In this document: piece after piece, positions 12,169-63,846 of the stretch
Numbering within the stretch: position 1 is the first letter of the stretch
Layout of the letters: every line of letters starts with the position of its first letter
NCBI RefSeq assembly: GCF_900103285.1
Contig: NZ_FNGS01000006.1
Coordinates: 372,001-436,000, forward strand
DNA from: Siphonobacter aquaeclarae
Lineage (GTDB): Bacteria; Bacteroidota; Bacteroidia; Cytophagales; Spirosomataceae
Length of the DNA: 64,000 nucleotides
Direction of reading: 5' to 3'
Notes under the pieces: model-generated
The model's database searches: none
What the model was told of the DNA's origin: nothing
What the model saw: the letters and a program-made list of their open reading frames with translations, nothing else
Program-made: the position numbers and the translations under genes

Positions 12169-12195
12169 GCAGGGGAGATGAAGAGTTTGCCTTGG

Positions 12196-12310
12196 GTTTT
12201 CGGTTTACAGTTTTCAGTTGGGGAGATTACCTGGTTTGCAACAAAATCAGGCGGAGGCGCCGGGGATAAAAAACTGAAAACCGAAGACTGACAACTGAAA
12301 ACCGAAAAAC
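12196..12310. repeat. Family A inverted repeat, copy 2 (imperfect)
   Basis: The left arm (about 12196-12220) and right arm (about 12270-12310) consist of TTTTCAG/TTTTCGG-type heptads in opposite orientation, with several mismatches and a GC-rich spacer. It occupies the divergent region between the CocE gene and hisG. Confidence 0.7.
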
Positions 12311-12356
12311 TCTCTGAAAGTAATAGACTATCCGGGATATTTTCGAAGGGAATGGC

Positions 12357-12364
12357 TAATTTTG
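12357..12364 (+). promoter_or_regulatory. Promoter -7 element of hisG
   Basis: An exact TAnnTTTG match (TAATTTTG). It implies a transcript start near 12371 and hence an ATG downstream of it, which supports the hisG start at 12418. No clear -33 element is seen. Confidence 0.6.
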
Positions 12365-12417
12365 CGCGCCAAATCGTTTTACTCTCCGGTACCCGATTCC
12401 GGGGAGACCCTCTGCTC

Positions 12418-13275: not shown

Positions 13276-13359
13276 GGTTTTCAGTTTAGGGTTTTCAGTT
13301 TTCGGTTGAGGCCGAACCCCAACCGAAAACTGAAAACCGAAAACCGAAAACCGAAAACC
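13275..13359. repeat. Family A inverted repeat, copy 3, between hisG and hisD
   Basis: A 19-bp inverted repeat (13290-13308 with 13320-13338) of TTTTCAG/TTTTCGG heptads. The right arm is extended by three more CCGAAAA units. It fills the hisG-hisD gap and ends 10 nt before the hisD start codon. Confidence 0.85.
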
Positions 13360-14640: not shown

Positions 14641-14644
14641 TACC

Positions 14645-14714
14645 GGTTTTCAGTTTTCCGTTTTCAGTTGGTAAAGAGACGGGAACCGTAAACTGCAAAC
14701 CGCAAACCGAAAAC
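14645..14714. repeat. Family A inverted repeat, copy 4, between hisD and hisC
   Basis: The left arm 14645-14671 contains TTTTCAG, TTTTCCG and TTTTCAG units; the degenerate right arm 14684-14714 has the opposite orientation. It fills the hisD-hisC gap and ends 3 nt before the hisC start codon. Confidence 0.78.
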
Positions 14715-14717
14715 ACT

Positions 14718-15773
14718 ATGTTCTCTCTCAATACCCTCGTCCGGCCTCACCTGCTGTCGCTGACGCCGTATTCTTCGGCGCGGGACGAATACAGCGGAAA
14801 GGAAGGCGTATTTCTCGATGCCAATGAAAACCCGCTCGGGTCGGCATCGGCTGGCAGGTACAACCGGTATCCGGACCCGTATCAATGGGCCATCAAGGAA
14901 AAACTGGCGCCGCTGAAGGGCGTTCGTCCGCAGCAGATTTTGCTGGGTAACGGCTCCGATGAGCCGATCGACCTGCTCGTCCGCCTTTTCTGTGAACCGA
15001 AGGAAGACCATATCCTGATCCTCCCGCCGACGTACGGCATGTACGAAGTGTCGGCCAATATTCAGAATGTAGGTATCAAAAAAGTGCCGCTGACGGCTGA
15101 TTTTCAGCTGGATGTGCCGGCTGTGCTCAACTCGGTCGACAACCATACCAAAATCATCTGGTTGTGCTCGCCGAATAACCCGTCGGGAAATGTACTCAAC
15201 CGGGCAGATATCATCCGCATCGTTGAGGCCACCTCGTGTATCGTGGTAGTGGACGAAGCCTACATCGACTTCGCGCCGGAAAGTACCCTGTTGAGCGAAC
15301 TCGACCGGTATCCTAACCTTGTCGTACTTCAGACGTTTTCCAAGGCGTGGGGGCTGGCCGGCCTTCGGGTAGGAATGTGCTTTGCAAGCGAGGAGATCAT
15401 TGCCCTGCTGAACAAGATCAAATCGCCCTATAACCTCAGCAGCAGTACCCAGGCAATTCTTGCCGAGGCGCTGAACGGCGTAGAAAAGAAGAATGAAATG
15501 GTCCGGGATATACTCCGGAACCGCGAACGCCTTCGCGAGACGCTGCTGACGCTGCCGAATGTGGAGACGATTTTCCCGTCGGACTCCAACCAGCTGCTGG
15601 TGAAGTTCACGGATTCTGCCGCGGTATTTCACTACCTGCTTGAAAATAAGGTCATTGTGCGGGATCGTTCGAAGGTTATGCATTGCGAAAACTGCCTTCG
15701 GATTTCCATTGGTACGGAGGAAGAAGACCGTCGGTTGACGGACCTGCTCGCGGCGTTTGCTGCGAAGGCATAA
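14718..15773 (+). CDS. hisC: Histidinol-phosphate aminotransferase
   Basis: 351 residues, a PLP-dependent class II aminotransferase that converts imidazole-acetol phosphate to histidinol phosphate. Motifs: LDANENPLG near the N-terminus, LLGNGSDEPIDLL, CSPNNPSGN, VVDEAYIDF, and the PLP lysine in TFSKAWGLAGLRVG. An in-frame ATG at 14637 overlaps the hisD stop, but the extra 27 residues would be translated family A repeat, so 14718 is the start. It closes the visible his series; hisB, hisH, hisA, hisF and hisI do not follow and must lie elsewhere. Confidence 0.96.
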   Translation: MFSLNTLVRPHLLSLTPYSSARDEYSGKEGVFLDANENPLGSASAGRYNRYPDPYQWAIKEKLAPLKGVRPQQILLGNGSDEPIDLLVRLFCEPKEDHILILPPTYGMYEVSANIQNVGIKKVPLTADFQLDVPAVLNSVDNHTKIIWLCSPNNPSGNVLNRADIIRIVEATSCIVVVDEAYIDFAPESTLLSELDRYPNLVVLQTFSKAWGLAGLRVGMCFASEEIIALLNKIKSPYNLSSSTQAILAEALNGVEKKNEMVRDILRNRERLRETLLTLPNVETIFPSDSNQLLVKFTDSAAVFHYLLENKVIVRDRSKVMHCENCLRISIGTEEEDRRLTDLLAAFAAKA

Positions 15774-15781
15774 GGCTTGGA

Positions 15782-15830
15782 GCAGAGGGCATGGGGCAGA
15801 GGGCATAGACCCTGTGCCCCATGCCCTTGT
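15782..15830. repeat. GC-phased heptad inverted repeat, after hisC
   Basis: A perfect 13-bp inverted repeat, AGGGCATGGGGCA (15786-15798) with 15815-15827. A GC dinucleotide recurs every 7 nt at 15782, 15789, 15796 and 15803, and again at 15816 and 15823 in the opposite arm. It lacks a T-tract. Confidence 0.82.
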
Positions 15831-16551: not shown

Positions 16552-19500
16552 ATGTTTACGATTTACGCCGCTTCCGCGGGTTCGGGAAAGACCTTCACAC
16601 TCACCAAGGAGTTTTTACGCCTGGCACTGTCGAGCTACCCCGACGACGCCGGAAACTACCGCTTCAGCCCGTTTTATTTCCAGCATATCCTCGCCGTCAC
16701 GTTTACGAACGACGCGGCGCACGAAATGAAAAAGCGCATCATGGATACGCTGGAAGCGCTGAGCCGGTTTGACGACCTTTCCCCCGAAAGAAAGAAAAAG
16801 ACGGAAGCCCTCCGGGCGCTCCTGCTGAAGGAAGTCGCCGGAGACACCCCCGGCGTCCCGGTGACGGCAGAGGAACTGAAAAGCCGCGCTCATGCGACCT
16901 TCCAGCGCCTGTTGCACAATTATGGAAACCTGTCGGTTTCGACGATTGACAGTTTCACGCAGCGTGTTGTGGCGGCTTTTACCGAAGAATTGGGCATTCC
17001 CTACAACTTTGAAGTCAACCTGGATTCAGACCTACTCATCGCCGCCGCCGTCGAAAATACGCTGGCGCGGGTCGGAAGGGAAGAGTTCAGCCAGTTGACC
17101 AGCGTACTCGAAGACCTGGTTGGCGACCTCGCCGACCAGGGAAAAAGCTGGAAGTCCCTCGAAAATGAGTTGAGCCAGGTAGGGCGCAAGATCCTGGAAG
17201 ACAAACACCGGGATGCCCTCGATAAACTGGCCGAGCTTACTTCAGACGACTTCTGGACCATCCGCCGGCAGCTTCGCGGGTATGTGCGCACGCAGGATGA
17301 AGCGTATAAGGAGTTGGGAGAATCGGCTGCCGTGATTTTCGAATCCGCCGGGCTGGTTGTGGAAGACTTTTCCTACGGCGCATCCGGCGCGGCAGGTTTT
17401 CTCCGGAAAATCGCCGATGGGGAGAAAAAGCTGACAGACGCGCCTTCTTCACGCCTTACCAAAGCCGTGGAAGAAGGCAAAGGCTGGATCGGCGCCAAAG
17501 CTCCGGCCGCCGTTCAGGCGCGTTTCCGGGAAATAGAAGACGCCCTGCGGGAAGCGGCGCTTCGTGTCCTGACACACCAGGAAGGAGAGCGCGAGAAGTA
17601 CATTCTTTGCCTCGAACTCGACCGCCACCTGCACAAACTGGCGCTGCTCAAGCAATTATCCGACGAGGTACGCGGCATCGAGGAGCAATCCGGGCAGATC
17701 CATATTTCGCGTTTCAACCAGTCAATCCTCCGGATTGTGCTGGAAGAGCCGGTGCCGTTTCTCTACGAACGTCTCGGTGAAAAATACCACCATATCCTGA
17801 TCGATGAGTTTCAGGATACTTCGCAGCTTCAATGGCTGAACTTTATGCCGTTGATAGACAATAGTTTAGCCGGCGGATACTACAACCTCCTGGTCGGTGA
17901 CGCGAAGCAAAGTATCTACCGGTTTCGCGGCGGGGAAATGGAGCAGCTGGTGTACCTTTTCCGCCGGGAAGACCTGACGCCGATGCTGCCGGCGGGTAAC
18001 GAGATCAACTGGAACGTCGGCGACCGCCTGCTTCACCTCAAAGGCCATCTCGAACCCCGTGTACTCGATTTCAACCGGAGAAGTACAAAGGAAGTAGTTG
18101 AATTCAACAACGCCTTTCTCGCCCATATCCTCGCGCAGGAAGTGGATGCAGGATGGACCGTCACGCCACGGATTTACGAAACCTTTTTCCAGCGTACGCC
18201 TGACAACCCCCGCTCGGGAGGGCATGTGCAGGTGGATTTTCTGGCGGAAGACCGGCCTACGCCTGACTTCGTCTGGCAACAGATCGAAGAATGCCTCGCC
18301 CTGGGGTATCAGGCACGGGATATCGCGATTCTGACGCGGAAAAACCGGCACGCGCGCGAGCTGGCCGACGCCCTCCGGCATAAAATCCGGATTGTCTCGG
18401 CCGATTCCCTGCTTGTGAGCGCTTCGGGCGCTGTCAACCTCGTGGTCGCCTTACTAAGGCTGCTCGAATCTCCGCGCCAGGCCCTGACGCAGTACGAGGC
18501 CGCTTACCTCTTCCTCAAAAACCTGCTCGCCCAGGTACCTGATGAAACGGTGAACGCCGAGATCCGGCGGGTGATCGAATCGGATGAGCCGCAGGCATTC
18601 TGGGACTGGCTGCGGAAACACGGGCACGACCTGCAACCGGGGCGCCTCCGTCGCCTCGACCTTTATTCCCTCTGCGAGCAGCTGATGGAACAGTTCGGAC
18701 TCTTTGACGACGAAGCCGAACTACCCTACCTGTTCCGCTTTCTGGATTATGTGCAGGATTTTGTCGGACGGAAAAGCGGCAGCCTGATCGACTGGCTCGC
18801 CGACTGGGAGCAGCAGAAGCACCGCCTCTGCGTCAGTACTCCCGAAGGCGAGGACGCCGTTACCATTCAATCCATCCATAAATCGAAAGGACTCGAGTAT
18901 CCCGTGGTACTGCTGCCGTATGCCAACTGGAGCTTTACGCCGGGTTTCCGGGACGAAATATGGGGCGATCTGGAAGAGACAGCATATGCTGAACTGGCTG
19001 TGAATGAGGGAGATACTTCCCGGAGGCTACGCACCGCGCCGTTTTCGCTGACAACCAAACTCCGCGATACCTTCCTCGGCCCCGCATATGAGCGCGAACG
19101 CGAACAGACGTTTCTCGATAATCTGAACCTGCTGTACGTTGCTCTGACGAGGCCCGTCGAACGTCTGTACATATCGATGGAGGCGCGGATGACCAAGCGG
19201 GGCGACAGCCTGAAAGATACCGTCGGGCAGTTTTTTGCGGGATACCTCGGATCGCGGGAAGGTACGCATATTATTTACCAGGGAGAGCCGCCCGCGCCGC
19301 GGAAAACGGAGGATACCTCAGGTTCGAAATGGATAGTACCGGAGGTGGTATCCGTCGACCGCAGCGATTCCATGCGCCTCCGCCGGCAGACCGACCGCCT
19401 GACCGAACTGGATTCCTTTCATTTGCAGAAGGAATGGGGGAACAAGGCACACGCCGCGATGCGGGAAATCCGCGTTCCGGCGGATGTGCCGGACGTCATC

Positions 19501-19851
19501 GACCGGATGAAGAAGCGGGGATTACTGGACGAGCAGCAGGTATCGCGGCTGACGGAATCGATCCATACCATTCTTAGCCATCCCGAAATGAAACCCTATT
19601 TCGAGCTGCCCGCGGAGTTTTTGTCGGAACAGGAAATCCTGATGCCGGACGGGCAGATCCTGCGTCCTGACCGCGTCGTCATCCGTCCCGACAAAACCGT
19701 CGCCATTCTCGACTACAAAACCGGAAAACCCCGGGAAAGCCACCGCGATCAGGTAAAATCCTATGCACGGCGGTACCGGCAAATGGGCTACGGAACCGTC
19801 GAATGCTGGCTCGTTTACCTCGAATCCGGCGAGGTAATCCGGGTAGATTGA
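16552..19851 (+). CDS. UvrD/AddA-like helicase with C-terminal PD-(D/E)XK nuclease
   Basis: 1099 residues. Superfamily 1A helicase motifs: Walker A AASAGSGKT at about 6-14, LAVTFTNDAAHEM (motif Ia), Walker B LIDEFQDTSQ near 417, GDAKQSIYRFRGG, QSIHKSKGLEYPVV (motif V region) and VALTRPVERLYI (motif VI). The C-terminal RecB-type nuclease has LDYKTGKPRESHRDQV near 1053. It should unwind and resect double-strand breaks as the AddA/RecB-like subunit. No addB-like partner is adjacent; it would have to lie elsewhere. The Phe-Thr-Ile start right at the Walker A strand is normal for the Bacteroidota form. Confidence 0.9.
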   Translation: MFTIYAASAGSGKTFTLTKEFLRLALSSYPDDAGNYRFSPFYFQHILAVTFTNDAAHEMKKRIMDTLEALSRFDDLSPERKKKTEALRALLLKEVAGDTPGVPVTAEELKSRAHATFQRLLHNYGNLSVSTIDSFTQRVVAAFTEELGIPYNFEVNLDSDLLIAAAVENTLARVGREEFSQLTSVLEDLVGDLADQGKSWKSLENELSQVGRKILEDKHRDALDKLAELTSDDFWTIRRQLRGYVRTQDEAYKELGESAAVIFESAGLVVEDFSYGASGAAGFLRKIADGEKKLTDAPSSRLTKAVEEGKGWIGAKAPAAVQARFREIEDALREAALRVLTHQEGEREKYILCLELDRHLHKLALLKQLSDEVRGIEEQSGQIHISRFNQSILRIVLEEPVPFLYERLGEKYHHILIDEFQDTSQLQWLNFMPLIDNSLAGGYYNLLVGDAKQSIYRFRGGEMEQLVYLFRREDLTPMLPAGNEINWNVGDRLLHLKGHLEPRVLDFNRRSTKEVVEFNNAFLAHILAQEVDAGWTVTPRIYETFFQRTPDNPRSGGHVQVDFLAEDRPTPDFVWQQIEECLALGYQARDIAILTRKNRHARELADALRHKIRIVSADSLLVSASGAVNLVVALLRLLESPRQALTQYEAAYLFLKNLLAQVPDETVNAEIRRVIESDEPQAFWDWLRKHGHDLQPGRLRRLDLYSLCEQLMEQFGLFDDEAELPYLFRFLDYVQDFVGRKSGSLIDWLADWEQQKHRLCVSTPEGEDAVTIQSIHKSKGLEYPVVLLPYANWSFTPGFRDEIWGDLEETAYAELAVNEGDTSRRLRTAPFSLTTKLRDTFLGPAYEREREQTFLDNLNLLYVALTRPVERLYISMEARMTKRGDSLKDTVGQFFAGYLGSREGTHIIYQGEPPAPRKTEDTSGSKWIVPEVVSVDRSDSMRLRRQTDRLTELDSFHLQKEWGNKAHAAMREIRVPADVPDVIDRMKKRGLLDEQQVSRLTESIHTILSHPEMKPYFELPAEFLSEQEILMPDGQILRPDRVVIRPDKTVAILDYKTGKPRESHRDQVKSYARRYRQMGYGTVECWLVYLESGEVIRVD

Positions 19852-19898: not shown

Positions 19899-22004
19899 AT
19901 GAATACCGCTTCTTCCTTTATTGCCAGTCAGTTATCCCTGGCGCCACGCTCGGTACAGGCGACGATTCAGTTGCTCGACGAAGGCGCTACAGTTCCCTTT
20001 ATTTCCCGGTACCGGAAGGAAGCCACCGGAAGCCTTGACGAAGTCCAGATTCAGGCGGTAAAAGACCACTACGAGAAGTTTCGGGAAACCGAAAAGCGCC
20101 GGGAGAGTATCCTCCAATCCATTCGCGAGCAGGGTAAGCTTACGCCGGCCCTTCAAAAGGCGCTTGAGGAAGCGACCACACTGACGCAGCTCGAAGACAT
20201 TTATCTTCCGTATAAACCCAAGCGGAAAACCCGCGCCACTATTGCCGCCGAAAAAGGCCTGGAACCCCTCGCCAAACTCATTTTCGAGCAGCGTGAGCGG
20301 GATATCGAAGCCAAAGCGGCGAAGTACCTTTCGGACGATGTTGCTTCCGTGGAAGAGGCATTGCAGGGCGCCGGCGATATCATGGCCGAATGGATTTCAG
20401 AGAATGCCGACGTCCGGAACGCGATCCGGAAAGTATTTGAAAAAGAGGCGGTTGTCGTCTCCAAAGTCAAGAAGAATAAGGAAACAGAAGGCGCCAAGTA
20501 CCGGGACTACTTCGACTTTTCGGAGGAACTCCGCAAGATCCCTTCGCACCGGCTGCTGGCGCTTCGCCGTGGAGAAGAAGAAGGCTTTTTGTCGGTCGGT
20601 ATAGCGCCGGACGAAGACCATGCCCTTGAGCGCATCGATCGGCTGGTGCTCCGCGGACAGAGTGAAGCGAAGCCCTTCATTGAAGACGCCATTACGGACA
20701 GTTACAAGCGCCTCATTCGACCGAGTATCGAAAATGAATTTGCCAAGCTGTCAAAAGAAAAGGCTGATTCAGAGGCGATTACTGTTTTCGTGGGAAACCT
20801 GCGGCAACTGTTGCTGTCGTCTCCCCTCGGGCAGAAAGTCGTGCTGGCTGTGGATCCGGGCTACCGGACGGGCTGCAAGACGGTATGCCTCGACGCACAG
20901 GGGAACCTGTTGCAGGAAACGGTCCTGTACCCGTTTGACAAAAAAGCAGAAGCGGAGCGCGTCGTGCGCGACTGGCTGACCCGGTTCAAGGTCGAAGCAA
21001 TCGCCATCGGTAACGGAACCGCCGGCCGGGAAACGGAAGATTTTCTCCGGGGATTATCGCTGCCCGTACCTGTTTTCATGGTTTCGGAGCAGGGTGCGTC
21101 GATTTATTCGGCGTCTGACGTTGCGCGGGAGGAGTTTCCGGACAAGGATGTCACCGTGCGCGGCGCCGTTTCGATTGGCCGCCGGCTGATGGACCCGCTG
21201 GCTGAGCTGGTCAAGATCGACCCGAAATCGATTGGGGTGGGGCAGTACCAGCACGATGTCGACCAGGGATCGCTCAAAAAGAGCCTGGATGTAGTCGTGG
21301 AAAGCTGTGTAAACGCCGTTGGCGTCAACCTGAATACCGCAAGCAAGCACCTGCTGAGCTACGTATCGGGCCTGGGGCCGGCGCTGGCGCAGAATATCGT
21401 CACCTACCGCAGGGAAAAAGGCGCTTTTCGCTCCCGGAAGGAACTGCTGAAAGTACCCCGTCTGGGCGCCAAGGCATACGAACAGTGTGCCGGTTTTCTC
21501 CGGATTCCCGGTGCCGGCGATCCGCTGGACAATTCTGCGGTACACCCCGAAAGCTACGGTATCGTCGAACAGATGGCTAAAGATCTGGGTATCAAAGTGA
21601 AAGACCTGATCAGTAGTCCTGAATCCCGGAAACAAATACAATTGCAGCGCTACGTCACCGAAGCAGCAGGTTTGCCAACGCTGAGGGATATCGTCGCCGA
21701 ACTGGAAAAACCCGGTCGCGACCCCCGCGAGCCGCTTTCCGAGTTCCGGTTCGAGGAAACCGTCCGTAAGCCTGAAGACCTGCGCGAGGGCATGATCCTG
21801 CCGGGTATCGTCACGAATATCACCGCTTTCGGCGCGTTTGTAGACGTGGGTGTGAAGCAGGACGGGCTGGTACACGTATCCCAGCTGGCCAGTAAATTCG
21901 TGAAAGATCCGAACGAAGTCGTGAAGCTTCACCAGCAGGTACAGGTGAAAGTGCTGGAAGTAGACATGGCCCGCAAGCGCATCTCCCTGACGATGAAATT
22001 TTGA
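19899..22004 (+). CDS. tex: Tex family RNA-binding transcription accessory protein
   Basis: 701 residues. Order: helical N-domain, YqgF/RNase H-like domain starting near 313 (VVLAVDPGYRTGCKT), helix-hairpin-helix repeats near 475-560 (LLSYVSGLGPALAQNIV) and a C-terminal S1 domain from about 628 (VTNITAFGAFVDVG). Tex binds nucleic acids and the transcription elongation machinery; its precise role is unsettled. The ATG at 19899 gives the family N-terminus and lies after the -7 promoter element; an upstream in-frame ATG inside the helicase gene is unlikely. Confidence 0.95.
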   Translation: MNTASSFIASQLSLAPRSVQATIQLLDEGATVPFISRYRKEATGSLDEVQIQAVKDHYEKFRETEKRRESILQSIREQGKLTPALQKALEEATTLTQLEDIYLPYKPKRKTRATIAAEKGLEPLAKLIFEQRERDIEAKAAKYLSDDVASVEEALQGAGDIMAEWISENADVRNAIRKVFEKEAVVVSKVKKNKETEGAKYRDYFDFSEELRKIPSHRLLALRRGEEEGFLSVGIAPDEDHALERIDRLVLRGQSEAKPFIEDAITDSYKRLIRPSIENEFAKLSKEKADSEAITVFVGNLRQLLLSSPLGQKVVLAVDPGYRTGCKTVCLDAQGNLLQETVLYPFDKKAEAERVVRDWLTRFKVEAIAIGNGTAGRETEDFLRGLSLPVPVFMVSEQGASIYSASDVAREEFPDKDVTVRGAVSIGRRLMDPLAELVKIDPKSIGVGQYQHDVDQGSLKKSLDVVVESCVNAVGVNLNTASKHLLSYVSGLGPALAQNIVTYRREKGAFRSRKELLKVPRLGAKAYEQCAGFLRIPGAGDPLDNSAVHPESYGIVEQMAKDLGIKVKDLISSPESRKQIQLQRYVTEAAGLPTLRDIVAELEKPGRDPREPLSEFRFEETVRKPEDLREGMILPGIVTNITAFGAFVDVGVKQDGLVHVSQLASKFVKDPNEVVKLHQQVQVKVLEVDMARKRISLTMKF

Positions 22005-23981: not shown

Positions 23982-24070
23982 GGTTTTCAATTTTCGGTTT
24001 TCTGTTTTCAGTTGGCTGACAAATCCGTTCGCCAGCCAACTGAAAACCAAAAACTGAAAACCGAAAACTG
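23982..24070. repeat. Family A inverted repeat, copy 5
   Basis: The left arm 23982-24018 has four heptads (TTTTCAA, TTTTCGG, TTTTCTG, TTTTCAG) plus TTGGCTG. The right arm 24033-24070 is its inverted, slightly diverged counterpart. It separates hemL from the glycosyltransferase gene on the minus strand and touches the hemL stop region. Confidence 0.85.
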
Positions 24071-24074
24071 CTTT

Positions 24075-25361
24075 TTAAGCTAGAATTTCCGCCAGGCTCT
24101 GTTCGTGCGCGGCGAGAATCGCGTCGACATGCTCAGGTGTGAGCGCGGTCGACAGGAAAAGGCTCTCAAATTGCGACGGCGCCAGGTAAATGCCCCGTTT
24201 GAGCATGGCCTGGAAATACGCACCGAAGAGTTTGAGATCGGAGGCTTTCGCCGTTTCGAAGTCCGTGACCGGTCCTTCGTTGAAAAACAGGGTGTACATC
24301 GAACCAATCCGGTTGATGGTGTAATGCTTGCCTGCTTTGGCGTTTGCCGCGCGCAAACCGGCTTCGAGCCGGGTTCCGGTCGCTTCCAGCGTCGTGTATA
24401 CTTCGGGGTGGTCCTTCAGGTGGCTCAGCATGGCGTAGCCGGCCGCCATCGCAATCGGGTTGCCCGAAAGCGTACCGGCCTGGTATACCGGACCGGCAGG
24501 GGATACGCAGTTCATGATGTCGTCACGACCGCCGTAAGCACCGACAGGCATGCCGCCGCCAATGATCTTGCCGAGGGTAGTCAGGTCGGGTTTAACATTC
24601 GTAATGCCCTGGAAACCGGAGGCAGACAGGCGGAAGCCGGTCATAACCTCGTCGAAAATGAGGACAATACCTTCGGCATCGCAAAGGGCGCGCAAGCCTT
24701 CAATGAATCCTTCGGCAGGAAGAACCAGACCCATATTTCCGGCGACTGCCTCCAGAATAATCGCGGCGATCTGTCCTTTGTTGGCTTCTGCCAGCCGACG
24801 AACCGCTTCGAGGTCATTGTAGGGCGCTGTCAGCGTATCCTGCGCAACACCTTTTGTTACGCCGGGACTGTCCGGTACGCCCATCGTCACGGCGCCGCTG
24901 CCGGCGGCGATCAGAAAGCTGTCGCCGTGGCCGTGGTAGCAGCCTTCAAACTTGATGATTTTGTCGCGACCGGTGAAGCCCCGTGCTACGCGGATGGCAG
25001 ACATCGTTGCCTCCGTTCCGGAATTGACCATCCGTACTTTCTCAATAGAGGGGACCATCGAGACGATCAGTTCAGCCATCTCCACTTCCCGGCGCGTCGG
25101 GGCGCCAAAGGAAAAGGAATGCTGTATGGCGTCAGAAACGGCCTTCTCGACCAGTTCATGCGCATGCCCGAGGATCATCGGTCCCCAGGAATTGATGAGT
25201 TCGATATACCGGTTGCCGTCCTCGTCGTGGAGGTAGGCGCCTTTCGCTGATTTGATAAAAACGGGGTTTCCACCGACGGCCCGGAAAGCACGCACGGGGG
25301 AGTTAACGCCGCCGGGAATGACTTGTCTGGCTTGTTGAAAGAGCTGTTCGGATTGTGTCAT
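24075..25361 (-). CDS. hemL: Glutamate-1-semialdehyde 2,1-aminomutase
   Basis: 428 residues, a class III PLP aminotransferase fold. It converts glutamate-1-semialdehyde to 5-aminolevulinate in the C5 route to heme. Motifs: IPGGVNSPVRAF at the N-terminus, GCYHGHGDSFL, IFDEVMTGFR, and the PLP lysine in TTLGKIIGGGMPVGAYGG. The length matches the family. It follows the LpoA-like gene by 15 nt on the same strand and is probably transcribed with it. Confidence 0.97.
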   Translation of the reverse strand: MTQSEQLFQQARQVIPGGVNSPVRAFRAVGGNPVFIKSAKGAYLHDEDGNRYIELINSWGPMILGHAHELVEKAVSDAIQHSFSFGAPTRREVEMAELIVSMVPSIEKVRMVNSGTEATMSAIRVARGFTGRDKIIKFEGCYHGHGDSFLIAAGSGAVTMGVPDSPGVTKGVAQDTLTAPYNDLEAVRRLAEANKGQIAAIILEAVAGNMGLVLPAEGFIEGLRALCDAEGIVLIFDEVMTGFRLSASGFQGITNVKPDLTTLGKIIGGGMPVGAYGGRDDIMNCVSPAGPVYQAGTLSGNPIAMAAGYAMLSHLKDHPEVYTTLEATGTRLEAGLRAANAKAGKHYTINRIGSMYTLFFNEGPVTDFETAKASDLKLFGAYFQAMLKRGIYLAPSQFESLFLSTALTPEHVDAILAAHEQSLAEILA

Positions 25362-31489: not shown

Positions 31490-33697
31490 ATGGAAACCAT
31501 TGATACAGCGGTCGAAACAATCCGGGTGCCGGTCACAGGCATGAGCTGTGCCGCCTGTGCCCTGAGCATCCAGACCGTCCTTTCGCGGCAGTCCGGCGTA
31601 GACGCTACTTCGGTCAATTTCGCCGACGAATCGGCCCGCATTACTTTTCACCCCGATGAAACGTCGCTGGAGCGCCTTCAGCAGGTTGTTCAAAGCATCG
31701 GATACAACCTGATTCTTGATACCGAAAACGCCGAAGAAAAACAGGCGGAATACAAGGAAAACAAACTGCGCGAACTACAGCGCAACCTCATCCGGGCTTC
31801 TATTCTGACGGTACCTGTCGTTGTACTCGGCATGGCGTTCATGGACTGGCCGCCCGCCAACTACATCATGTGGGTGCTGAGTACGCCGGTGCTGTTCGTT
31901 TTCGGGAAAAAGTTCTTCGTCAATGCCTGGAAGCAGGCCCGGTTCGGGCAGACGTCGATGGATACCCTCGTTGCGATGAGTACCGGGATCGCCTACGCCT
32001 TCAGTGTCTTCAATACGCTCAATCCGGAATTCTGGCACCGCCGCGGCCTGCATCCGCACGTGTACTTCGAAGCGGCAGCGGTAGTCGTCGCGTTTATCCT
32101 CCTCGGAAAATGGCTGGAAGAACGAGCCAAGTCTACTACTTCTTCTGCGATTAAGAAGCTGATGGGCCTTCAGCCTCAGTCGGTTATACTGGTACTCAAC
32201 GGAGAAGAAAAGGAGATATCCCTCGCGGAGGTGAAAGTTGGCGACCGGATTCTGGTTCGGCCGGGAGATAAGATTCCGGTCGACGGGAAAGTCAAATCGG
32301 GGCACTCTTTTGTCGATGAAAGCATGATCTCCGGAGAACCGGTTCCCGTCGAAAAAACAAAAGGTACTTCTGTATTCGCCGGTACCGTCAACCAGCAGGG
32401 TAGCTTTCACCTGATCGCGGCGAAAGTAGGCGGGGAGACACTCCTGGCCCAGCTGATCCGCCTGGTACAGGAAGCTCAGGGTAGCAAGGCGCCGGTGCAG
32501 CGCCTGGTCGACAAAATCGCCGGCATATTCGTACCCGTCGTGATCATCATCGCTGCCCTGACGTTTGCCGCCTGGTGGGTACTCGGTGGAGACAATGCGC
32601 TGACCTACGGGCTTCTCAATGCCGTGACGGTGCTGGTTATCGCCTGTCCCTGTGCGCTGGGACTGGCTACGCCGACGGCTATTATGGTCGGCGTAGGCAA
32701 AGGCGCCGAAAGCGGTATCCTCATCAAAGACGCCGAAAGCCTCGAAAAGGCCTACCAGGTCAACCACGTCATCCTCGACAAAACCGGTACCATCACGCAG
32801 GGAAAGCCGGATGTCACCGATGCCCGTTGGGAAAGCGATTTCTTCCGGAGTGTACTGATGGGGATTGAGGGACAATCGACGCACCCGCTGGCAGAAGCAG
32901 TGGTCCGGTACCTGAAAGAACAAAATGCCAGGCCGATCGCAATGGAACGGGTCGACGCCGTTCCGGGTAAAGGTATGCAGGCCGTATACGCCGGTCAGAC
33001 GTTCTATGCCGGCAGTCCTGGCTGGATGACGGCCCTCGGCCTGTCGATGGACGAATGGCCGGTCAAAACCTGGCAGCAACAGGCACAAACGGTGATTCTG
33101 CTGGCGGACGATGTGAAAGTCCGCGCCGCCCTGGCCATTTCCGATCCCGTCAAGGAAACCTCGGCTGAAGCGGTTCGCCAACTGAAAAAACAAGGTATCG
33201 GCGTGACGATGCTGACGGGCGACAACCGCCAGACCGCCGCGTTCGTCGCCGGACAGGTCGGGATCACCGACGTCCGGGCGGAAGTCATGCCGCAGGACAA
33301 GGCCGCCGTCGTGAAAGAGCTTCAGCAGCAGGGAAAGGTAGTTGCGATGGTCGGCGACGGCATCAACGACTCCCAGGCACTGGCTCAGGCCGACGTCAGC
33401 GTAGCCATGGGGCATGGTTCGGATATTGCGATGAACGTGGCGAAAATGACCCTGATTTCCAGTGACTTGCAACTATTACCCCGCGCGTTTCACCTCTCGT
33501 CAATGACGGTAGGCGCCATACGCCAGAACCTGTTCTGGGCTTTTATTTACAACATCATCGGGATTCCGATTGCAGCGGGGGTACTCTACCCGGTTAACGG
33601 TTTCCTGCTCAACCCCATGATTGCGGGGGCGGCGATGGCCCTGAGTTCGGTTTCCGTCGTCTCCAACAGTCTTCGTCTTAAATACCGTAAACTATAA
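31490..33697 (+). CDS. copA: Copper-translocating P-type ATPase (P1B)
   Basis: 735 residues. One N-terminal heavy-metal domain has CAAC in [10 protein letters not shown] (about 17-26). Eight transmembrane helices are expected, with the ion-binding CPC in [12 protein letters not shown]. Other motifs: the phosphorylation loop DKTGTITQG, the HP motif of P1B pumps (STHPLAEAV) and the hinge [20 protein letters not shown]. The TGES-equivalent is [10 protein letters not shown]. It exports Cu(I) from the cytoplasm. ATG 31490 lies close to the metal domain; an upstream in-frame ATG at 31418 directly follows the previous gene and is less likely. A small metal-binding protein follows 14 nt downstream. 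Confidence 0.94.
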
Positions 33698-38373: not shown

Positions 38374-38390
38374 AGCATAGGGCAGGGGGG
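38373..38390. repeat. GC-phased heptad repeat, single-arm remnant
   Basis: A short stretch (GAGCATAGGGCAGGGGGG) with GC at 38375 and 38382, matching one arm of the repeats at 15782 and 48783. It has no inverted partner here. Confidence 0.5.
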
Positions 38391-45830: not shown

Positions 45831-45961
45831 TTTCAGACCCATCGCGCAGGAAGCGGAACCTAATAGCCGGAGGCGGCTGTTTCCATCACTGCGCGCCTCC
45901 TGATAATCAGGCAAATCGTAAATCTTCCCCGGAAGAGGTGCCGAAATGTGAGAATCGGGCG

Positions 45962-45969
45962 TATTTTTG
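45962..45969 (+). promoter_or_regulatory. Promoter -7 element of the pyruvate dehydrogenase E2 gene
   Basis: An exact TAnnTTTG match (TATTTTTG), about 40 nt before the ATG at 46010. Confidence 0.62.
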
Positions 45970-46009
45970 AATCGCAATTCTGTTCTAAACCCTTTCCGTT
46001 TGTTTACAC

Positions 46010-47650
46010 ATGGCAGAAGTAATTCGTATGCCCCTTTTGAGTGACACGATGACTGAAGGGGTCATCGCCGAGTGGCTCAAAAAAGTGGGCGATACCGTTA
46101 AATCCGGAGATATCCTGGCTGAAGTTGAAACCGACAAGGCTACGATGGAACTGGAAAACTACGCGGACGGCACCCTGCTGTACGTAGCCGCCGAGAAAGG
46201 CCAGGCGATTGCCGTAAACGGCGTACTGGCAGTAGTGGGTCAGCCCGGAGAAGATTACCAGGCGCTCCTCAACGGAGGCGCTGCTCCCAAAGCTGAAGCG
46301 GCCCCTGAAGTAAAAGAAGAAAAAGCTCCGGAAGCTCCTGCTGCACCGGCTCCGGCGGCCGCCAAACCGGCAGTAGACCTCTCTACTGTGAAGGCAACGG
46401 CGATCCGCATGCCGCTCCTCAGCGATACCATGACCGAAGGCGTCATCGCCAACTGGGTCAAAAAGGTAGGAGACAAGGTGAAAAACGGAGACATCCTGGC
46501 GGAAGTCGAGACCGACAAAGCCACCATGGAGCTCGAAAACTACGAAGACGGTACGCTGCTCTACATCGGTGTAGAAGCCGGCGCTGCCGCCAAGGTAAAC
46601 CAGATCATCGCGATTGTCGGTGAAGAAGGCGCCAATTTCCAGGCGATTCTCGACGCAGAAAACGGCGTAGCGGCTCCCGCTGCTGCCGAACCTGCCGCCG
46701 CTCCGGCTGCTTCCCCTGCCGCTTCCGGCAACGGACAGGCTATAGCTGACGCCGACGGCCGCGTGAAGGCCTCCCCGCTGGCTAAATCCATTGCGAAAGA
46801 CAAGGGTATCAACCTGTCTGACGTAACGGGCAGCGGTGAAAACGGTCGTATCGTTAAGCGCGATCTCGACAGTTTTACCCCGAAACCTGCTGCTGCTCCG
46901 GCTGCATCTGCACCTGCCGCAGCACCGGCTCCGGTTGCTGCGCCCGTGGCTGTTCCGGCGCCTGCCGGCGAGTTCGAGGACCTGCCGGTTTCGCAAATGC
47001 GCAAGACCATCGCCCGTCGTCTCGCAGAGTCCTTGTACACGGCTCCGCACTTCTATCTGACGATGGAAATCACGATGGACAAGGCCATCCAGCTGCGTAC
47101 GCAACTCAACGAAGTTGCTTCCGCGAAGATTTCCTTCAACGATTTCACCATCAAGGCTGCCGCACTGGCGCTGAAGCAACACCCCGCGGTGAATGCTTCC
47201 TGGCTGGGCGACAAGATCCGCCGGTACCACTACATCAACATCGGTGTGGCAGTAGCGGTAGAGGATGGCCTCGTGGTACCCGTTGTCCGGAATGCTGATC
47301 AGAAGACGCTGTCGACCATCTCCACCGAGGTGAAAGACTACGCCGGCAAAGCCAAGAACAAAAAACTCCAGCCGAAGGATATGGAAGGCTCAACCTTCAG
47401 TATCTCCAACCTGGGTATGTTCGGCATCGAAGAGTTCAACCCGATCATCAACTCGCCGGATTCCTGTATTCTCGCTGTGGGCGGAATCAAGAAAACCGTA
47501 GCTGTGAATGATGCCGGTGAATTCTATGCCACCAATATCATGAAAGTGACCCTGGCCTGTGACCACCGCTCCGTCGACGGCGCTACCGGAGCCGCTTTCC
47601 TCCAGACGTTTAAGCAGTTGCTGGAAGATCCGATGCGGATGCTTGTCTAA
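46010..47650 (+). CDS. Pyruvate dehydrogenase E2, dihydrolipoamide acetyltransferase
   Basis: 546 residues. Two lipoyl domains (about 1-78 and 128-205) each carry the lipoylated Lys in VETDKATMEL. Ala/Pro-rich linkers separate them from the E1/E3-binding domain (about 255-290, ASPLAKSIAKDKGINLSDV) and the C-terminal catalytic domain (about 320-546) with the active-site His/Asp in DHRSVDGATGAAF. It passes acetyl groups to CoA in the core of the complex. Two almost identical lipoyl domains suggest internal duplication. The E1 and E3 genes are not adjacent, so the complex is encoded at several loci. Confidence 0.95.
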   Translation: MAEVIRMPLLSDTMTEGVIAEWLKKVGDTVKSGDILAEVETDKATMELENYADGTLLYVAAEKGQAIAVNGVLAVVGQPGEDYQALLNGGAAPKAEAAPEVKEEKAPEAPAAPAPAAAKPAVDLSTVKATAIRMPLLSDTMTEGVIANWVKKVGDKVKNGDILAEVETDKATMELENYEDGTLLYIGVEAGAAAKVNQIIAIVGEEGANFQAILDAENGVAAPAAAEPAAAPAASPAASGNGQAIADADGRVKASPLAKSIAKDKGINLSDVTGSGENGRIVKRDLDSFTPKPAAAPAASAPAAAPAPVAAPVAVPAPAGEFEDLPVSQMRKTIARRLAESLYTAPHFYLTMEITMDKAIQLRTQLNEVASAKISFNDFTIKAAALALKQHPAVNASWLGDKIRRYHYINIGVAVAVEDGLVVPVVRNADQKTLSTISTEVKDYAGKAKNKKLQPKDMEGSTFSISNLGMFGIEEFNPIINSPDSCILAVGGIKKTVAVNDAGEFYATNIMKVTLACDHRSVDGATGAAFLQTFKQLLEDPMRMLV

Positions 47651-48402: not shown

Positions 48403-48783
48403 ATGAAACGACTGGTACTCTTTCTGGCGATCCTGCCGGTCCTCGCTTCCTGCAAGAAGGATAGTGACAAGCAACTGTACGACCGCGTTTCGGGAGAAGG
48501 GCTGGTGGGTAACTGGCAGCTTTTCGAGGAAGGAAGCTCTCCGGGTGCTGGTTACTATATCACTAAAATTCCGGCTAACCCGGCGCAGATGCTTTGGTTC
48601 CGGGAAAACGGTACCTGGGAAAGCAACATCCGCAATAAATCTTCGTCGGGACAGTATTTGTATACAGACTCGACGCTTTCCTTCCAGAACGGCACTGTGC
48701 GGTATAAAATCTCCGGCGATACGCTGACTATCCACCCTCCGTGTTACGAGGGGTGCCATTCGGCGTACGTTCGGGTGAGGTAG
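48403..48783 (+). CDS. Small lipoprotein, lipocalin-like
   Basis: 126 residues. The signal peptide ends in the lipobox LASC (Cys17), followed by KKDSDK. The rest is beta-rich with LVGNWQLFEEGSS at the start and FRENGTWES in the middle, the pattern of lipocalin-like/META-type lipoproteins common in Bacteroidota. Two late Cys (CYEGC) may form a disulphide or bind metal. Ligand unknown. I chose ATG 48403 because an in-frame ATG at 48379 would put charged residues before the signal peptide. Confidence 0.75.
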   Translation: MKRLVLFLAILPVLASCKKDSDKQLYDRVSGEGLVGNWQLFEEGSSPGAGYYITKIPANPAQMLWFRENGTWESNIRNKSSSGQYLYTDSTLSFQNGTVRYKISGDTLTIHPPCYEGCHSAYVRVR

Positions 48784-48848
48784 CAGAGGGCATGGAGCAT
48801 GGGGTGTAAACGTGAGCTACCCTATGCTCCATGCCCTCCGCCCTATGC
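48783..48848. repeat. GC-phased heptad inverted repeat, before the nspC 3' end
   Basis: A 20-bp inverted repeat with one mismatch (48786-48805 with 48819-48838). GC recurs every 7 nt at 48783, 48790 and 48797 in the left arm and at 48826, 48833, 48840 and 48847 in the right. It begins at the lipoprotein stop codon and ends at the nspC stop. Confidence 0.85.
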
Positions 48849-49982
48849 CTATGACAAGCGATCGCGATAGCTTTCGTACCCGTAACTCCGGATGAGCTCG
48901 AACGTATCGTCTTCGCGCCAGATGCCGATGGAAGGCAGGTTGACGCCGTTGAAGGTCGTCGTCTTCACCATGGTATAGTGGATCATGTCGTCGAGAATGA
49001 TCCTGTCTCCTTCCTGAAGCTCCCGATCAAAACTGTAATCCCCCATGTAATCTCCGGCCAGGCAGGTGGTGCCGCCCATGCGGTAGGTCGGCTTGCCCGG
49101 AACCGGATCCTGGTCTGCGCCGAGAATGCGCGGCTTATAGGGCATTTCGAGCGTGTCGGGCATATGTGCCGCGAAGGAGGTATCGAGCATGGCTACCGGA
49201 ATACCCTGCGCGTCGATAACGTCGAGGACGGTAGAGACCAGCACGCCGGTCTGCCAGCCAACCGCCGAGCCCGGTTCAAGGGTTATCTTCAGATGCGGGA
49301 ATTTGGCTTTGAAATTCTTCAGTACCTGCACGAGATGGGCCGGGTCATAGTCGGCCCGCGTAATGAGGTGCCCGCCGCCCATGTTGAGCCATTTGACCTG
49401 CATCAGCAGGTCGGAGAAGCGCTGCTCGACATGCTCCAGGGTACGTTCGAGCGTGTGCGAATCGTTCTCGCACAGCGTATGAAAATGCAATCCTTCGATT
49501 TCGGCCGGCAGCTGATCGGGGAGTCCTGCGCGGATTACGCCGAGGCGTGAGCCGGGTACGCAGGGGTTGTACAGATCGGTCGCTACTTCTGAATATTGCG
49601 GATTGATCCGGATGCCAACGGATACGCCGGCTGCGGCGGCTTTGGCGCCGAACTTCTCAAACTGCCGCCAGGAGTTGAACGTCAGGTAGGCGGAACGATC
49701 GATGAGTTCGTCGATTTCGTCTTCCCGGATGGCAGGAACGTAGCTATGCGCTTTGGTACCCCACTCTTCGTTGATGAGGCGCGCTTCATGAACGCTGCTG
49801 GCGGTGGCGCCTGCGAGGTAGTTTTTGAGAATGGGAAAGGTACTGAACATCGCGTAGCCTTTCAGCGCGCAGATGATTTCCACTCCGGCCTGGTCCTGAA
49901 CGTCCCGCAGAAGCTGCAGGTTGCGTTTCAGTTTCGCCTCTTCGAGGACGAAGCACGGGGACGGGATGAGATCGTAATTCAT
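48849..49982 (-). CDS. nspC: Carboxynorspermidine decarboxylase
   Basis: 377 residues, a fold III PLP decarboxylase of the alanine racemase/ornithine decarboxylase type. PLP-binding Lys41 lies in CALKGYAMFS; FHTLCEND and WLNMGGGHLITR follow, and the C-terminal active-site region is CLAGDYMGDYSF. It decarboxylates carboxynorspermidine or carboxyspermidine to the triamine. The matching dehydrogenase is at 35782-36999. A -7 element lies upstream at 50095-50102, so the leader carries a heptad repeat. Confidence 0.94.
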   Translation of the reverse strand: MNYDLIPSPCFVLEEAKLKRNLQLLRDVQDQAGVEIICALKGYAMFSTFPILKNYLAGATASSVHEARLINEEWGTKAHSYVPAIREDEIDELIDRSAYLTFNSWRQFEKFGAKAAAAGVSVGIRINPQYSEVATDLYNPCVPGSRLGVIRAGLPDQLPAEIEGLHFHTLCENDSHTLERTLEHVEQRFSDLLMQVKWLNMGGGHLITRADYDPAHLVQVLKNFKAKFPHLKITLEPGSAVGWQTGVLVSTVLDVIDAQGIPVAMLDTSFAAHMPDTLEMPYKPRILGADQDPVPGKPTYRMGGTTCLAGDYMGDYSFDRELQEGDRIILDDMIHYTMVKTTTFNGVNLPSIGIWREDDTFELIRSYGYESYRDRLS

Positions 49983-50020: not shown

Positions 50021-50076
50021 GCTGTGAGCGCCAGGCTTTAAGCAGTAGGCCATAGGCTCTTAGCCAGCGGCAGCGT
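50021..50076. repeat. GC-phased heptad array, eight units
   Basis: Eight consecutive 7-nt units each begin with GC (50021, 50028, 50035, 50042, 50049, 50056, 50063, 50070), for example GCTTTAA, GCAGTAG and GCCATAG. It lies in the nspC leader on the minus strand. Confidence 0.85.
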
Positions 50077-50094
50077 CCGGATTAAAAGACGGGA

Positions 50095-50102
50095 CAAAAA
50101 TA
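50095..50102 (-). promoter_or_regulatory. Promoter -7 element of nspC
   Basis: An exact TAnnTTTG match (TATTTTTG on the minus strand). The transcript leader would be about 105 nt and would include the eight-unit heptad array. Confidence 0.55.
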
Positions 50103-50173
50103 GACTATTCCCCGGGGCAGGTAACTAAAAAACCGGAAAGAAAGATCCGGAAGGGAATAGGCTGTGGTAATGA

Positions 50174-50346
50174 GCGACAGGCTTTAAGCAATAGGCTGTA
50201 GGCAGTATGCTGTGGGCGATAGCTGTATTGATAGAAACAAAAAGGATGTTTCAACAAGTGAAACATCCTTTTTGCTATTTCTGTACTAAGGCTGCAGCCA
50301 ACTCTTGCTTAAAGCCTATTGCCTATAGCTTATCGCCCAACGCCTA
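50174..50346. repeat. GC-phased heptad inverted repeat around a terminator
   Basis: The left arm has GC at 50174, 50181, 50188, 50195, 50202, 50209 and 50216; the inverted right arm has GC at 50307, 50314, 50321, 50328, 50335 and 50342. The arms share units such as GCTTTAA and GCAATAG in opposite orientation. The hldD terminator sits between them. The right arm reaches into the hldD stop codon. Confidence 0.85.
50238..50274. terminator. Bidirectional terminator of hldD
   Basis: A perfect 15-bp stem CAAAAAGGATGTTTC / GAAACATCCTTTTTG (50238-50252 with 50260-50274). The A/T run at the stem foot serves the minus-strand hldD transcript. Confidence 0.88.
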
Positions 50347-51309
50347 CAGATACCTCCCCAGCTTCAAATAATTCCCGACATAATCGGCAATGCCTTCTTC
50401 CAGGGTATGAAACGGCTTTTCGTAGCCGATCGCCCGGAGTTTGCTCATGTTGGCTTCGGTGAAGTACTGGTATTTATCGCGGATGTCTTCCGGGGTATCG
50501 ATGAAGGAAATATCCGGCTCGAGGTTCATGGCCCGGAAGGTATTGGTGGCCAGGTCGAGGAAAGTACGGGCTTTGCCGCTTCCGAGGTTGTAGATGCCGG
50601 AATGCTTGCGGCTGTACATCAGGAAGAGGCAGACATCGACCACGTCGCGGACATAGACAAAATCACGCATTTGCTCGCCGTCGCGGTACTCCGGATTGTG
50701 TGACCGGAAGAGTTTCATTTTCCCGGTCTGGGTAATCTGCCGGTGCGCGTGGAGGATAACCGACGCCATCCGCCCCTTGTGGTATTCGTTCGGTCCGTAG
50801 ACGTTAAAAAACTTCAAACCAGCCCAGAAGAAGGGCTTTTCTTCCTGTTCCAGGGCCCAGATATCAAACTGGTTTTTGGATTCGCCGTAGGGATTGAGCG
50901 GCTTGAGCTGCGGAATGAGCGCTTCGTTGTCATCGTATCCCAGTTCGCCGAGACCATACGTCGCCGCCGAAGAGGCATAGACCAGAGGAATCTGGTAGGC
51001 GACGCATTTTTGCCAGATCTGCTTCGAATAATTGACGTTGAGATGGTCAAAAATGGCGTAGTCGAACTCCGTGGTATCGGTGCGGGCGCCGATGTGGAAG
51101 ATAAACTCGATTTCGTGGTAATTCTGGTCGAGCCAGGTGAAGAACTGCTCCCGGTCGACATACTCCTGAATCTGCTTGCCTTCCAGATTCTTCCGTTTTT
51201 CCGGATCGGAAAAATCATCGACGGCAATGATAAAGCTAAACTTGTCCTGGTTCAACCGCTGAATCAGGTTACTGCCAATAAAGCCTGCGGCCCCGGTAAC
51301 GACAATCAT
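50344..51309 (-). CDS. hldD: ADP-L-glycero-D-manno-heptose 6-epimerase
   Basis: 321 residues, a short-chain dehydrogenase/epimerase. The NAD(P) site is IVVTGAAGFIGSNL; the Tyr/Lys pair lies in NPYGESKNQFD. The substrate region ARTDTTEFDYAIFDHLNVNYSK and the C-terminal EEGIADYVGNYLK are typical of HldD/RfaD. It makes the heptose donor for LPS core. The gene stands alone, with a -7 promoter element 60 nt upstream and a strong terminator. Another sugar-nucleotide epimerase is less likely because of the RTDTTE signature. Confidence 0.92.
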   Translation of the reverse strand: MIVVTGAAGFIGSNLIQRLNQDKFSFIIAVDDFSDPEKRKNLEGKQIQEYVDREQFFTWLDQNYHEIEFIFHIGARTDTTEFDYAIFDHLNVNYSKQIWQKCVAYQIPLVYASSAATYGLGELGYDDNEALIPQLKPLNPYGESKNQFDIWALEQEEKPFFWAGLKFFNVYGPNEYHKGRMASVILHAHRQITQTGKMKLFRSHNPEYRDGEQMRDFVYVRDVVDVCLFLMYSRKHSGIYNLGSGKARTFLDLATNTFRAMNLEPDISFIDTPEDIRDKYQYFTEANMSKLRAIGYEKPFHTLEEGIADYVGNYLKLGRYL

Positions 51310-52052: not shown

Positions 52053-52080
52053 AAGAGGAGCAGGGAGACCTGCTCCTCTT
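52053..52080 (+). terminator. Hairpin between the pterin synthase and lpxB
   Basis: A perfect 12-bp stem AAGAGGAGCAGG / CCTGCTCCTCTT with a GAGA (GNRA) loop. It is followed by GTCTGAC rather than a T-tract and ends 8 nt before the lpxB ATG, so it may attenuate or stabilise rather than terminate. Confidence 0.55.
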
Positions 52081-52088
52081 GTCTGACT

Positions 52089-53189: not shown

Positions 53190-53290
53190 TTTCTCACAGA
53201 AAGCACAGAATACACAGAAGCAGGTTCCAGTTGTTTCGCCGAAGCAAAGGATCTCTTATTTTCTGTGTATTCTGTGCTTTCTGTGAGAAA
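53190..53290. repeat. Family B inverted repeat (GTG every 9 nt), copy 2
   Basis: A perfect 30-bp inverted repeat (53190-53219 with 53261-53290) and a 41-nt spacer. The arms are 9-nt units such as TTCTGTGTA and TTCTGTGCT. It fills the gap between the convergent lpxB and VOC genes. Confidence 0.88.
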
Positions 53291-61528: not shown

Positions 61529-61599
61529 GTCTGTGAAGTCTGTGAAGTCTGTGAAGTCTGTGAGCCTTTTTTCTCACAGACTTCACAGACTTCACAGAC
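61529..61599. repeat. Family B inverted repeat (GTCTGTGAA units), copy 3
   Basis: Four 9-nt units (GTCTGTGAA three times, then GTCTGTGAG) from 61529. The last three pair perfectly over 27 bp (61538-61564 with 61573-61599) around an 8-nt T-rich loop. The right arm ends at the stop codon of the aminopeptidase gene. Confidence 0.88.
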
Positions 61600-63702: not shown

Positions 63703-63725
63703 GCGGCAAAGTTGAGCAATTACGC

Positions 63726-63781
63726 GCAAAGGGCAAAGAGCATACAGCCATGAGCTTTTCCCCATGCCCCGTGCCCCGTGC
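63726..63781. repeat. GC-phased heptad inverted repeat, upstream of the methyltransferase
   Basis: GC occurs every 7 nt at 63726, 63733, 63740, 63747 and 63754, then in the opposite arm (CCCCATG and two CCCCGTG units) at 63766, 63773 and 63780. The arms are diverged and do not pair perfectly. Confidence 0.72.
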
Positions 63782-63783
63782 AA

Positions 63784-63846
63784 GATTGGTTACCATTAAA
63801 AAAGCCGGGCAGCGTCGCTGCCCGGCTTTTTTAATGGTAACCAATC
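63784..63846. terminator. Very long perfect palindrome, bidirectional terminator
   Basis: A 31-bp perfect stem (63784-63814 with 63816-63846) around a single central base. The GC-rich inner part GCCGGGCAGCG is flanked by runs of A and T, so it can terminate in both directions. It lies 1 nt from the stop codon of the DUF1080 gene on the minus strand. Confidence 0.85.

Follow-up and report, generated by a model that had tools for sequence, protein, structure and literature searches.

Repeat elements of the window

The window analysed here is a stretch of 64,000 nucleotides of Siphonobacter aquaeclarae DNA. At 50021–50346 it contains an intergenic region flanked by two genes of the minus strand, 48849–49982 and 50344–51309, the latter encoding a protein that is 86% identical to one from an uncultured Siphonobacter MAG and 79–80% identical to those from Spirosoma. 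Three arrays of the TARGCNN type are found in this region. The first one (50021–50077, plus sense), separated by 38 nt from the start of gene 48849–49982, has eight GC dinucleotides in steps of 7 (50021–50070), whereas the other two constitute the arms of a hairpin. The left arm (50171–50222, plus) has seven GCs (50174–50216), and the inverted right arm (50302–50346, minus) has six (50307–50342) and extends into the stop codon of gene 50344–51309. An ordinary perfect hairpin, AAAAAGGATGTTTCA / TGAAACATCCTTTTT (50236–50276), identified by sequence and fold, lies between the heptad arms and looks like a bidirectional intrinsic terminator. On the transcribed (minus) strand, the arms of 50171–50346 pair around this terminator-like hairpin (191 nt, z −8.95).

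All of the GC steps that the preliminary description had reported for this region are present in the sequence. The same step of 7 is also found at 15768–15803 (six GCs), at 48783/48790/48797 together with 48826–48847 (four), and at 63726–63754 (five) together with 63766/63773/63780. The alleged remnant at 38375 consists of just two GCs (38375 and 38382) and carries no weight. The array at 63726–63781 is degenerate and folds no better than shuffled sequences (z −0.73 for 63718–63790). Two of the remaining elements are GCAKRGR hairpins, one located after the stop codon at 15773 on the plus strand (15786–15827, z −6.77), the other occupying an entire convergent gap (48783–48848, z −7.73).

The arrays of the window extend beyond those with GC steps. 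Hairpins of GTTTNCN units follow the plus-strand gene ending at 434 (445–520, z −7.54), begin at the stop codon of the plus-strand gene 12352–13275 (13276–13352, z −6.78), and lie 7 nt off the stop codon of the minus-strand gene 24075–25361 (23983–24068, z −9.63). Two inverted halves of the same type, located after the plus-strand stop codon at 14640 (14646–14714), fold weakly (z −1.76 for 14643–14718). The GTTTNCN hairpin at 12197–12308 has an intermediate value (z −3.54 for 12190–12315) and is an exception to the rule, as it lies in a divergent gap. Two further hairpins have units of 9 nt with the core TCTGTG and identical arms: that at 53193–53287 has the spacers TAT/CTT and its AC-rich arm first (z −13.52), and that at 61530–61598, with the spacers AAG, lies in a convergent gap (z −8.84).

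Among the ten whole elements folded, eight have z values of −6.7 or lower, while the two single arms folded alone gave values of about zero, as expected. In total, heptads were detected by the motif-free scan described below in 6 of the 41 gaps of the window, and two gaps have the 9-nt kind; the arrays at 14646, 48783 and 63726 are visible, yet fall under the scan threshold, and are additional to these six. A known RNA family, which the preliminary description had named as a finding that would overturn it, was rejected, since no Rfam match reached the gathering threshold within the window.

Period, families and arms of the repeats

The source genome of the window (G000) comprises 6.19 Mb in 19 contigs, of which 1.65 Mb, window included, were scanned. 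The analysis covered 901 gaps (194 kb) with a minimum length of 40 nt, shorter ones being omitted throughout. These gaps contain 92 runs of at least five GCs at a spacing of 7, in comparison with 0–1 in each of five dinucleotide-preserving shuffles; this is the excess over shuffled sequence by which the preliminary description had proposed to be judged, and chance is excluded as the source of the runs. Such runs are absent at the other spacings from 4 to 11 and number two at a spacing of 12, and three with the spacing of 7 were found inside genes (1.45 Mb). A motif-free scan based on autocorrelation revealed 108 period-7 segments in the 901 gaps and, multiples of 7 apart, no more than three segments at any other period. 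The five shuffles yielded no period-7 segment, and 1.45 Mb of genes yielded four. A small control, 13.6 kb of gaps from three 50-kb stretches of Escherichia coli, had no segments at periods 4–15. The period of 7, the intergenic location and the inverted layout given in the preliminary description are all borne out.

Based on motifs, 148 heptad arrays were identified in 100 of the 901 gaps. They belong to four families, often present as inverted pairs: GTTTNCN (68 arrays), TARGCNN (49), GCAKRGR (15) and GTTTNGN (12), with four other arrays. The 9-nt family, in which TCTGTGNNN occurs at least three times and terminates in TCTGTGAG, was found at 33 places in the 1.65 Mb. Heptad and 9-nt arrays never occur in the same gap (0 of 156 convergent gaps, P 0.003). 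Neither GTTTNCN, which is the commonest family, nor GTTTNGN, nor the 9-nt family has a GC dinucleotide core, and the GC phase is therefore not the uniting rule that it had been taken for, although the accompanying suggestion that arrays of different letters belong together holds.

A fixed order of the arms was observed. Among the gaps with at least two heptad arrays, 39 of 44 have the sense array ahead of the inverse one; none of the two-array gaps has the reversed order, and one four-array gap (LRLL) has an inverse array ahead of a sense one. At the threshold used, 56 of the 100 heptad gaps have a single array only. Of 42 classified pairs, 40 have both arms from the same family. As measured by G minus C, the left arm is G-rich and the right arm C-rich in 38 of the 41 two-array gaps of the source genome, in 13 of 15 in 20 stretches from relatives, which were selected for holding a GTTTNCN match, in 5/5 in the congeners, and in 4/5 around one gene in named Bacteroidota. 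In ordinary intergenic hairpins, too, the left arm tends to be richer in G than in C, but the bias is weaker (152 to 69, compared with 112 to 13 for heptads). One convergent gap (G000:C15:180347–180721) is a single large inverted repeat with heptad arms outside and a duplicated terminator-like hairpin inside.

The units combine fixed and free positions, as would be expected if a DNA- or RNA-binding protein read a fixed core every 7 (or 9) nt and left the spacers free. In 300 TARGCNN units, the frequencies of G, C, T and A are.99,.95,.86 and.85, R is A or G in equal parts, and both N positions are free; mismatches between paired arms number 0/105 at GC, 6/96 at TA, 20/50 at R and 23/90 at NN, all of these figures being partly circular, because the arrays were assigned by that motif. 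In the 9-nt family, with 20 fixed core positions, 60 arms are perfect and 12 have one mismatch, after which there is nearly nothing until the background (1, 1 and 2 arms with two, three and four mismatches, respectively; none below four in a Markov control). The earlier remark that 7 nt is not a helical period is true of one unit, but three units make 21 bp, near two turns of 10.5 bp, and a protein filament on such an array is conceivable. The protein explanation has to contend with different families occupying the same sort of place in one genome, and it leaves the anchoring at stop codons described below unexplained; it is considered unlikely.

Comparison of the arms revealed that spacers of the 9-nt family agree between arms in 21 of 28 pairs (one right arm is counted twice, and both of those pairs mismatch), compared with 0.11 between loci. 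The loops of this family are A+T-rich, differ among loci and are scarcely more similar to each other than shuffled ones. For GTTTNCN, the true partner arm scores better than permuted ones (47.9 vs. 43.9 ± 1.1; 1 of 10000 permutations), and TARGCNN arms match no better than arms from other loci (39.3 vs. 37.2 ± 1.8; 1236 of 10000 permutations). At G000:C7:349735–350070, a run of N, possibly an assembly gap, separates two hairpins of the 9-nt family with similar loops.

The polarity of the arms is that of fused telomeres, and exactly this G-outwards, head-to-head geometry would arise if a telomerase-like reverse transcriptase extended the two 3' ends of a break with G-rich 7-nt repeats before these ends were joined; GTTTAGG units do occur. 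Such independent addition would not be expected to yield the shared spacers of the 9-nt arms. An origin by reverse transcriptase is also unlikely because the source genome (98.7% complete) has no match to PF00078 (RVT_1) at E ≤ 1e-3, the control being positive in 3 of 14 genomes. Taken together, this explanation is extremely improbable.

The capacity to form G-quadruplexes was rejected as a general basis of the repeats, since 133 of the 148 arrays lack four GGG runs, two-tier GG quadruplexes aside. At least four such runs were found in only 15 arrays, including 12/15 of GCAKRGR, 1/68 of GTTTNCN and 0/49 of TARGCNN, and in none of the 9-nt arms. Units of GCAKRGR and GTTTNGN do contain GGG runs, and at least four GG runs, compatible with two-tier quadruplexes, are present in 80 of the 148 arrays.

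Position at gene ends and turnover among relatives

Among the 156 convergent gaps, 37 contain heptad arrays and 20 the 9-nt family; the corresponding numbers are 54 and 8 among 544 tandem gaps, and 9 and 1 among 201 divergent gaps. After exclusion of 8 of the 148 arrays from the edge test, the outer edge was found within 15 nt of a stop codon for 39 of 50 arrays in convergent gaps (9.7 under uniform placement) and, in tandem gaps, for 30 of the 35 arrays on the stop side (7.1 under uniform placement). Arrays next to a stop codon, in either kind of gap, often overlap the last codons. On the start side, the count is at chance level (9 of 45; uniform 9.5), although it may be blurred, as genes were called by a simple ORF script that gives exact stops and approximate starts; in divergent gaps it is 1 of 10 (uniform 1.2). 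The excess on the stop side, but not on the start side, identifies the stop codon as the anchor.

This is the position at which other genes carry a terminator hairpin followed by a U-tract, defined here as at least five T within the 8 nt following the stem. Convergent gaps with arrays have fewer such terminators than those without (20/57 vs. 61/99; p 0.0016), although one is nonetheless present in 14 of 37 convergent heptad gaps. In tandem gaps, the difference is not significant (9/62 vs. 117/482; p 0.11), while tandem heptads alone show a deficit in comparison with gaps of at least 60 nt (p 0.03). Directly after the stem, a U-tract was found in 6 of 113 heptad hairpins, compared with 36 of 220 other hairpins; for the 9-nt family, this was the case in 5 of 27 gaps. 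Thus, the elements have the stable hairpin of a canonical intrinsic terminator and, as a rule, lack its U-tract, and this identity was rejected.

Based on these observations, we tentatively favour a plausible explanation according to which the heptad and 9-nt repeats are 3'-end hairpin elements in the terminator's slot, with stems derived from 7-nt slippage. In this lineage, a hairpin longer than the usual one, each arm of which repeats a short core imperfectly in tandem every 7 (or 9) nt, often stands right after the stop codon and would act as a block at the RNA end: whether terminated past it by Rho or at a terminator close by, transcripts would be shortened as far as the hairpin. Where two genes converge, a single palindrome would do this for the two of them. 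Polymerase slippage in steps of 7 nt, together with one arm serving as the template for the other, would form and renew the stems; in this way the word could change without any loss of layout, period or polarity. Selection at the RNA level was assessed by comparing the numbers of G.U and A.C mismatches in the transcribed strand. Ordinary hairpins of tandem gaps have an excess of G.U (134:92, p 0.006); heptad hairpins of tandem gaps do not (128:112, p 0.33), and the difference between the two is not significant (p 0.22). The missing G.U excess did not support the 3'-end hairpin reading and counts against it.

Alternatively, mutation might suffice, if heptamer slippage and template switching gave rise to palindromic heptads at any site and selection merely purged them from genes and promoters. 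All data sets show a period of 7 regardless of the word, one family can pass into another within a single array (GTTTTGA, then GTTTTCA), and the E. coli gaps (13.6 kb) hold no segments of any period. Long perfect runs such as (GTTTTCG)12 also argue for active expansion: perfect GTTTTCG arrays of 12 and 10 units, a sign of recent expansion, are located at G000:C7:225466–225549 and C7:399580–399649, respectively, and both are followed by AGAGATT. Mutation alone does not predict anchoring at stop but not start codons, and it predicts neither the fixed polarity nor the shortage of U-tract terminators, so that this explanation is judged not likely.

Gain and loss of the elements were observed when the same gaps were compared across five congeners (G001–G005). 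The hairpin at 13276 is missing in all five, where the gaps are 18–28 nt long. The gap g39–g40 (window 52053–52088) has a plain hairpin in the source genome, GTTTTGA/GTTTAGG units in G001 and G003, and GTTTTCA units in G002, G004 and G005; comparison of G001 with G004 shows its whole length, stop codon to start codon, to be replaced. In orthologous gaps, a plain hairpin is found in congeners where the source genome has heptads, or vice versa. Some persistence was detected between two congener clades (arrays in both clades at 5 gaps, in one clade only at 5 and 6, and in neither at 30; p 0.04, small numbers). None was detected between the source genome and these clades (0/4 and 1/4; p 1.0 and 0.80, small numbers), in a test that misses the array 14646–14714, because the called start of the following gene is too far upstream. 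G001 and G004 are 91.6% identical over 80 kb, and faster turnover of heptad gaps was not evident between them: among 150 syntenic gaps, those with heptads in both genomes (4) or in one (2) have median identities of 0.86 and 0.77, compared with 0.88, and are not clearly less conserved than the others.

A GTTTNCN query matched 34 of 150 Spirosomataceae genomes, in 9 of 36 genera, own included, and a TARGCNN query matched 9 of the 150, including the source genome, and none of the five congeners. In a set of 80 named Bacteroidota loci around one gene (43.7 kb of gaps), period 7 leads with 18 segments at 12 loci, followed by periods 14 (7 segments) and 8 (2 segments). The period-7 loci are from Spirosoma telluris, Telluribacter, Dyadobacter luteus, four Hymenobacter, Rufibacter, and Microscillaceae and Cyclobacteriaceae MAGs, and their words differ (e.g., TAGCTNN, AACTGNN). 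A perfect period-8 array, AAACATTC, unlike the others, was seen in the G001:C1 region (local 45952–46039 of an 80-kb stretch).

Several words thus come and go between species, and it looks like the layout rather than the word is what matters. It is possible, although rather doubtful, that the repeats are a sequence-independent gene-end element: its layout (a hairpin at the stop codon, a period of 7 nt, and the G-strand pointing off the gene) would be kept, while its word would be exchanged between species and loci and would at times give way to one of 9 letters whose spacers match between the arms.

Selfish palindromes of the REP or MITE kind, which disperse and tolerate or target gene ends, were also considered. 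The 9-nt family, numerous in the source genome and matched in none of the 149 other Spirosomataceae genomes, the five congeners included, must have spread within one lineage, although the search was by BLAST with one 81-nt query. TARGCNN is absent from the five congeners, yet matches eight other Spirosomataceae genomes. Dispersal is also consistent with the long hairpin-bearing composite elements of G003 (L171–L174 joined, 18963–19581, and 31950–32495) and G002 (21054–21803). In these intergenic composites, CGGCCGCCGCTGC is followed by a long, nearly perfect heptad array (GTTTTGA then GTTTTCA, or GTTGTTA), then by GTTGGAAAGT and finally by clustered hairpins like GGTTGGTGAGGACACCAACC and AACCCCGGAGGGGTT. 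The loops and flanks of the copies are not homologous, and simple copy-and-paste of a whole element is therefore unlikely; the genes between close 9-nt elements, judged by eye, resemble housekeeping genes. The sole Y1 transposase (PF01797) of the source genome has no heptads within 1.5 kb, and RAYT-driven REP elements were rejected, as no period-7 segment lies in the 3.3-kb locus of this gene. Overall, a selfish origin appears quite unlikely.

Comparison with known heptamer repeats

The STRR of cyanobacteria are degenerate heptamer arrays between genes with the word CCCCART, which is absent from all of the unit families found here, and we know of no inverted, stop-anchored layout among them. 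REP sequences and REPINs are dispersed extragenic palindromes with a bias towards 3' ends; unlike them, the present elements have no single conserved palindrome and no heptads near the one Y1 transposase gene of the genome. No description of such repeats in Spirosomataceae was found in the open-licence literature, outside of which most subscription papers fall.

The preliminary description knew of no counterpart in Bacteroidota. One is on record: intergenic direct repeats of TAACTGA have been described in five Bacteroidetes, among others (MacGregor 2015, PMC4679880), and other heptamers are noted beside them. Similar to these, the arrays studied here are intergenic heptamers of Bacteroidetes. 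In the parts of that paper dealing with the repeats, TAACTGA is one fixed word with one inverted case in the genome concerned, located mostly just upstream of start codons, whereas the present arrays have different words and are found near start codons at chance level (9/45). An excess of heptamers, the commonest long repeat unit in bacteria, and the idea of slippage go back to Mrazek et al. 2007, as cited in PMC4692102 and PMC4679880.

The inverted layout has a precedent as well. The closest known system is that of the inverted GGGANTN heptamers of Xanthomonas, which share the layout and not the letters. In Xanthomonas campestris and X. axonopodis, GGGAATC / (GGGANTN)n heptamers are located near genes and form inverted pairs in 70 and 75 cases (Rehm et al. 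2015, PMC4692102). Their G-rich strand points off the near gene, they are rare in divergent gaps, and their length and sequence vary between the two species. The unit is G4-forming and the paper is centred on G-quadruplexes; in its passages on these repeats, no function is given and their role is left to be elucidated. As in Xanthomonas, the present arrays have a 7-nt unit with fixed and free positions in many intergenic copies, inverted pairs with the G-rich strand off the near gene, and few cases between divergent genes. Unlike GGGANTN, only 15 of the 148 arrays have four GGG runs, several families are present in one genome, and convergent gaps are the richest.

If the repeats are indeed a sequence-independent gene-end element, Bacteroidota and Xanthomonas would share a layout without sharing letters, and G-quadruplexes would not be its basis. 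The heptamer repeats of Xanthomonas, cyanobacteria and a few others have been known without a function. In Siphonobacter, several words with one layout in one genome, most of them not built from GGG runs, separate layout from letters, and the stop-codon anchoring together with the reduced frequency of U-tract terminators where convergent gaps hold arrays gives a concrete, testable idea of what such repeats may be, namely, hairpins of transcript 3' ends.
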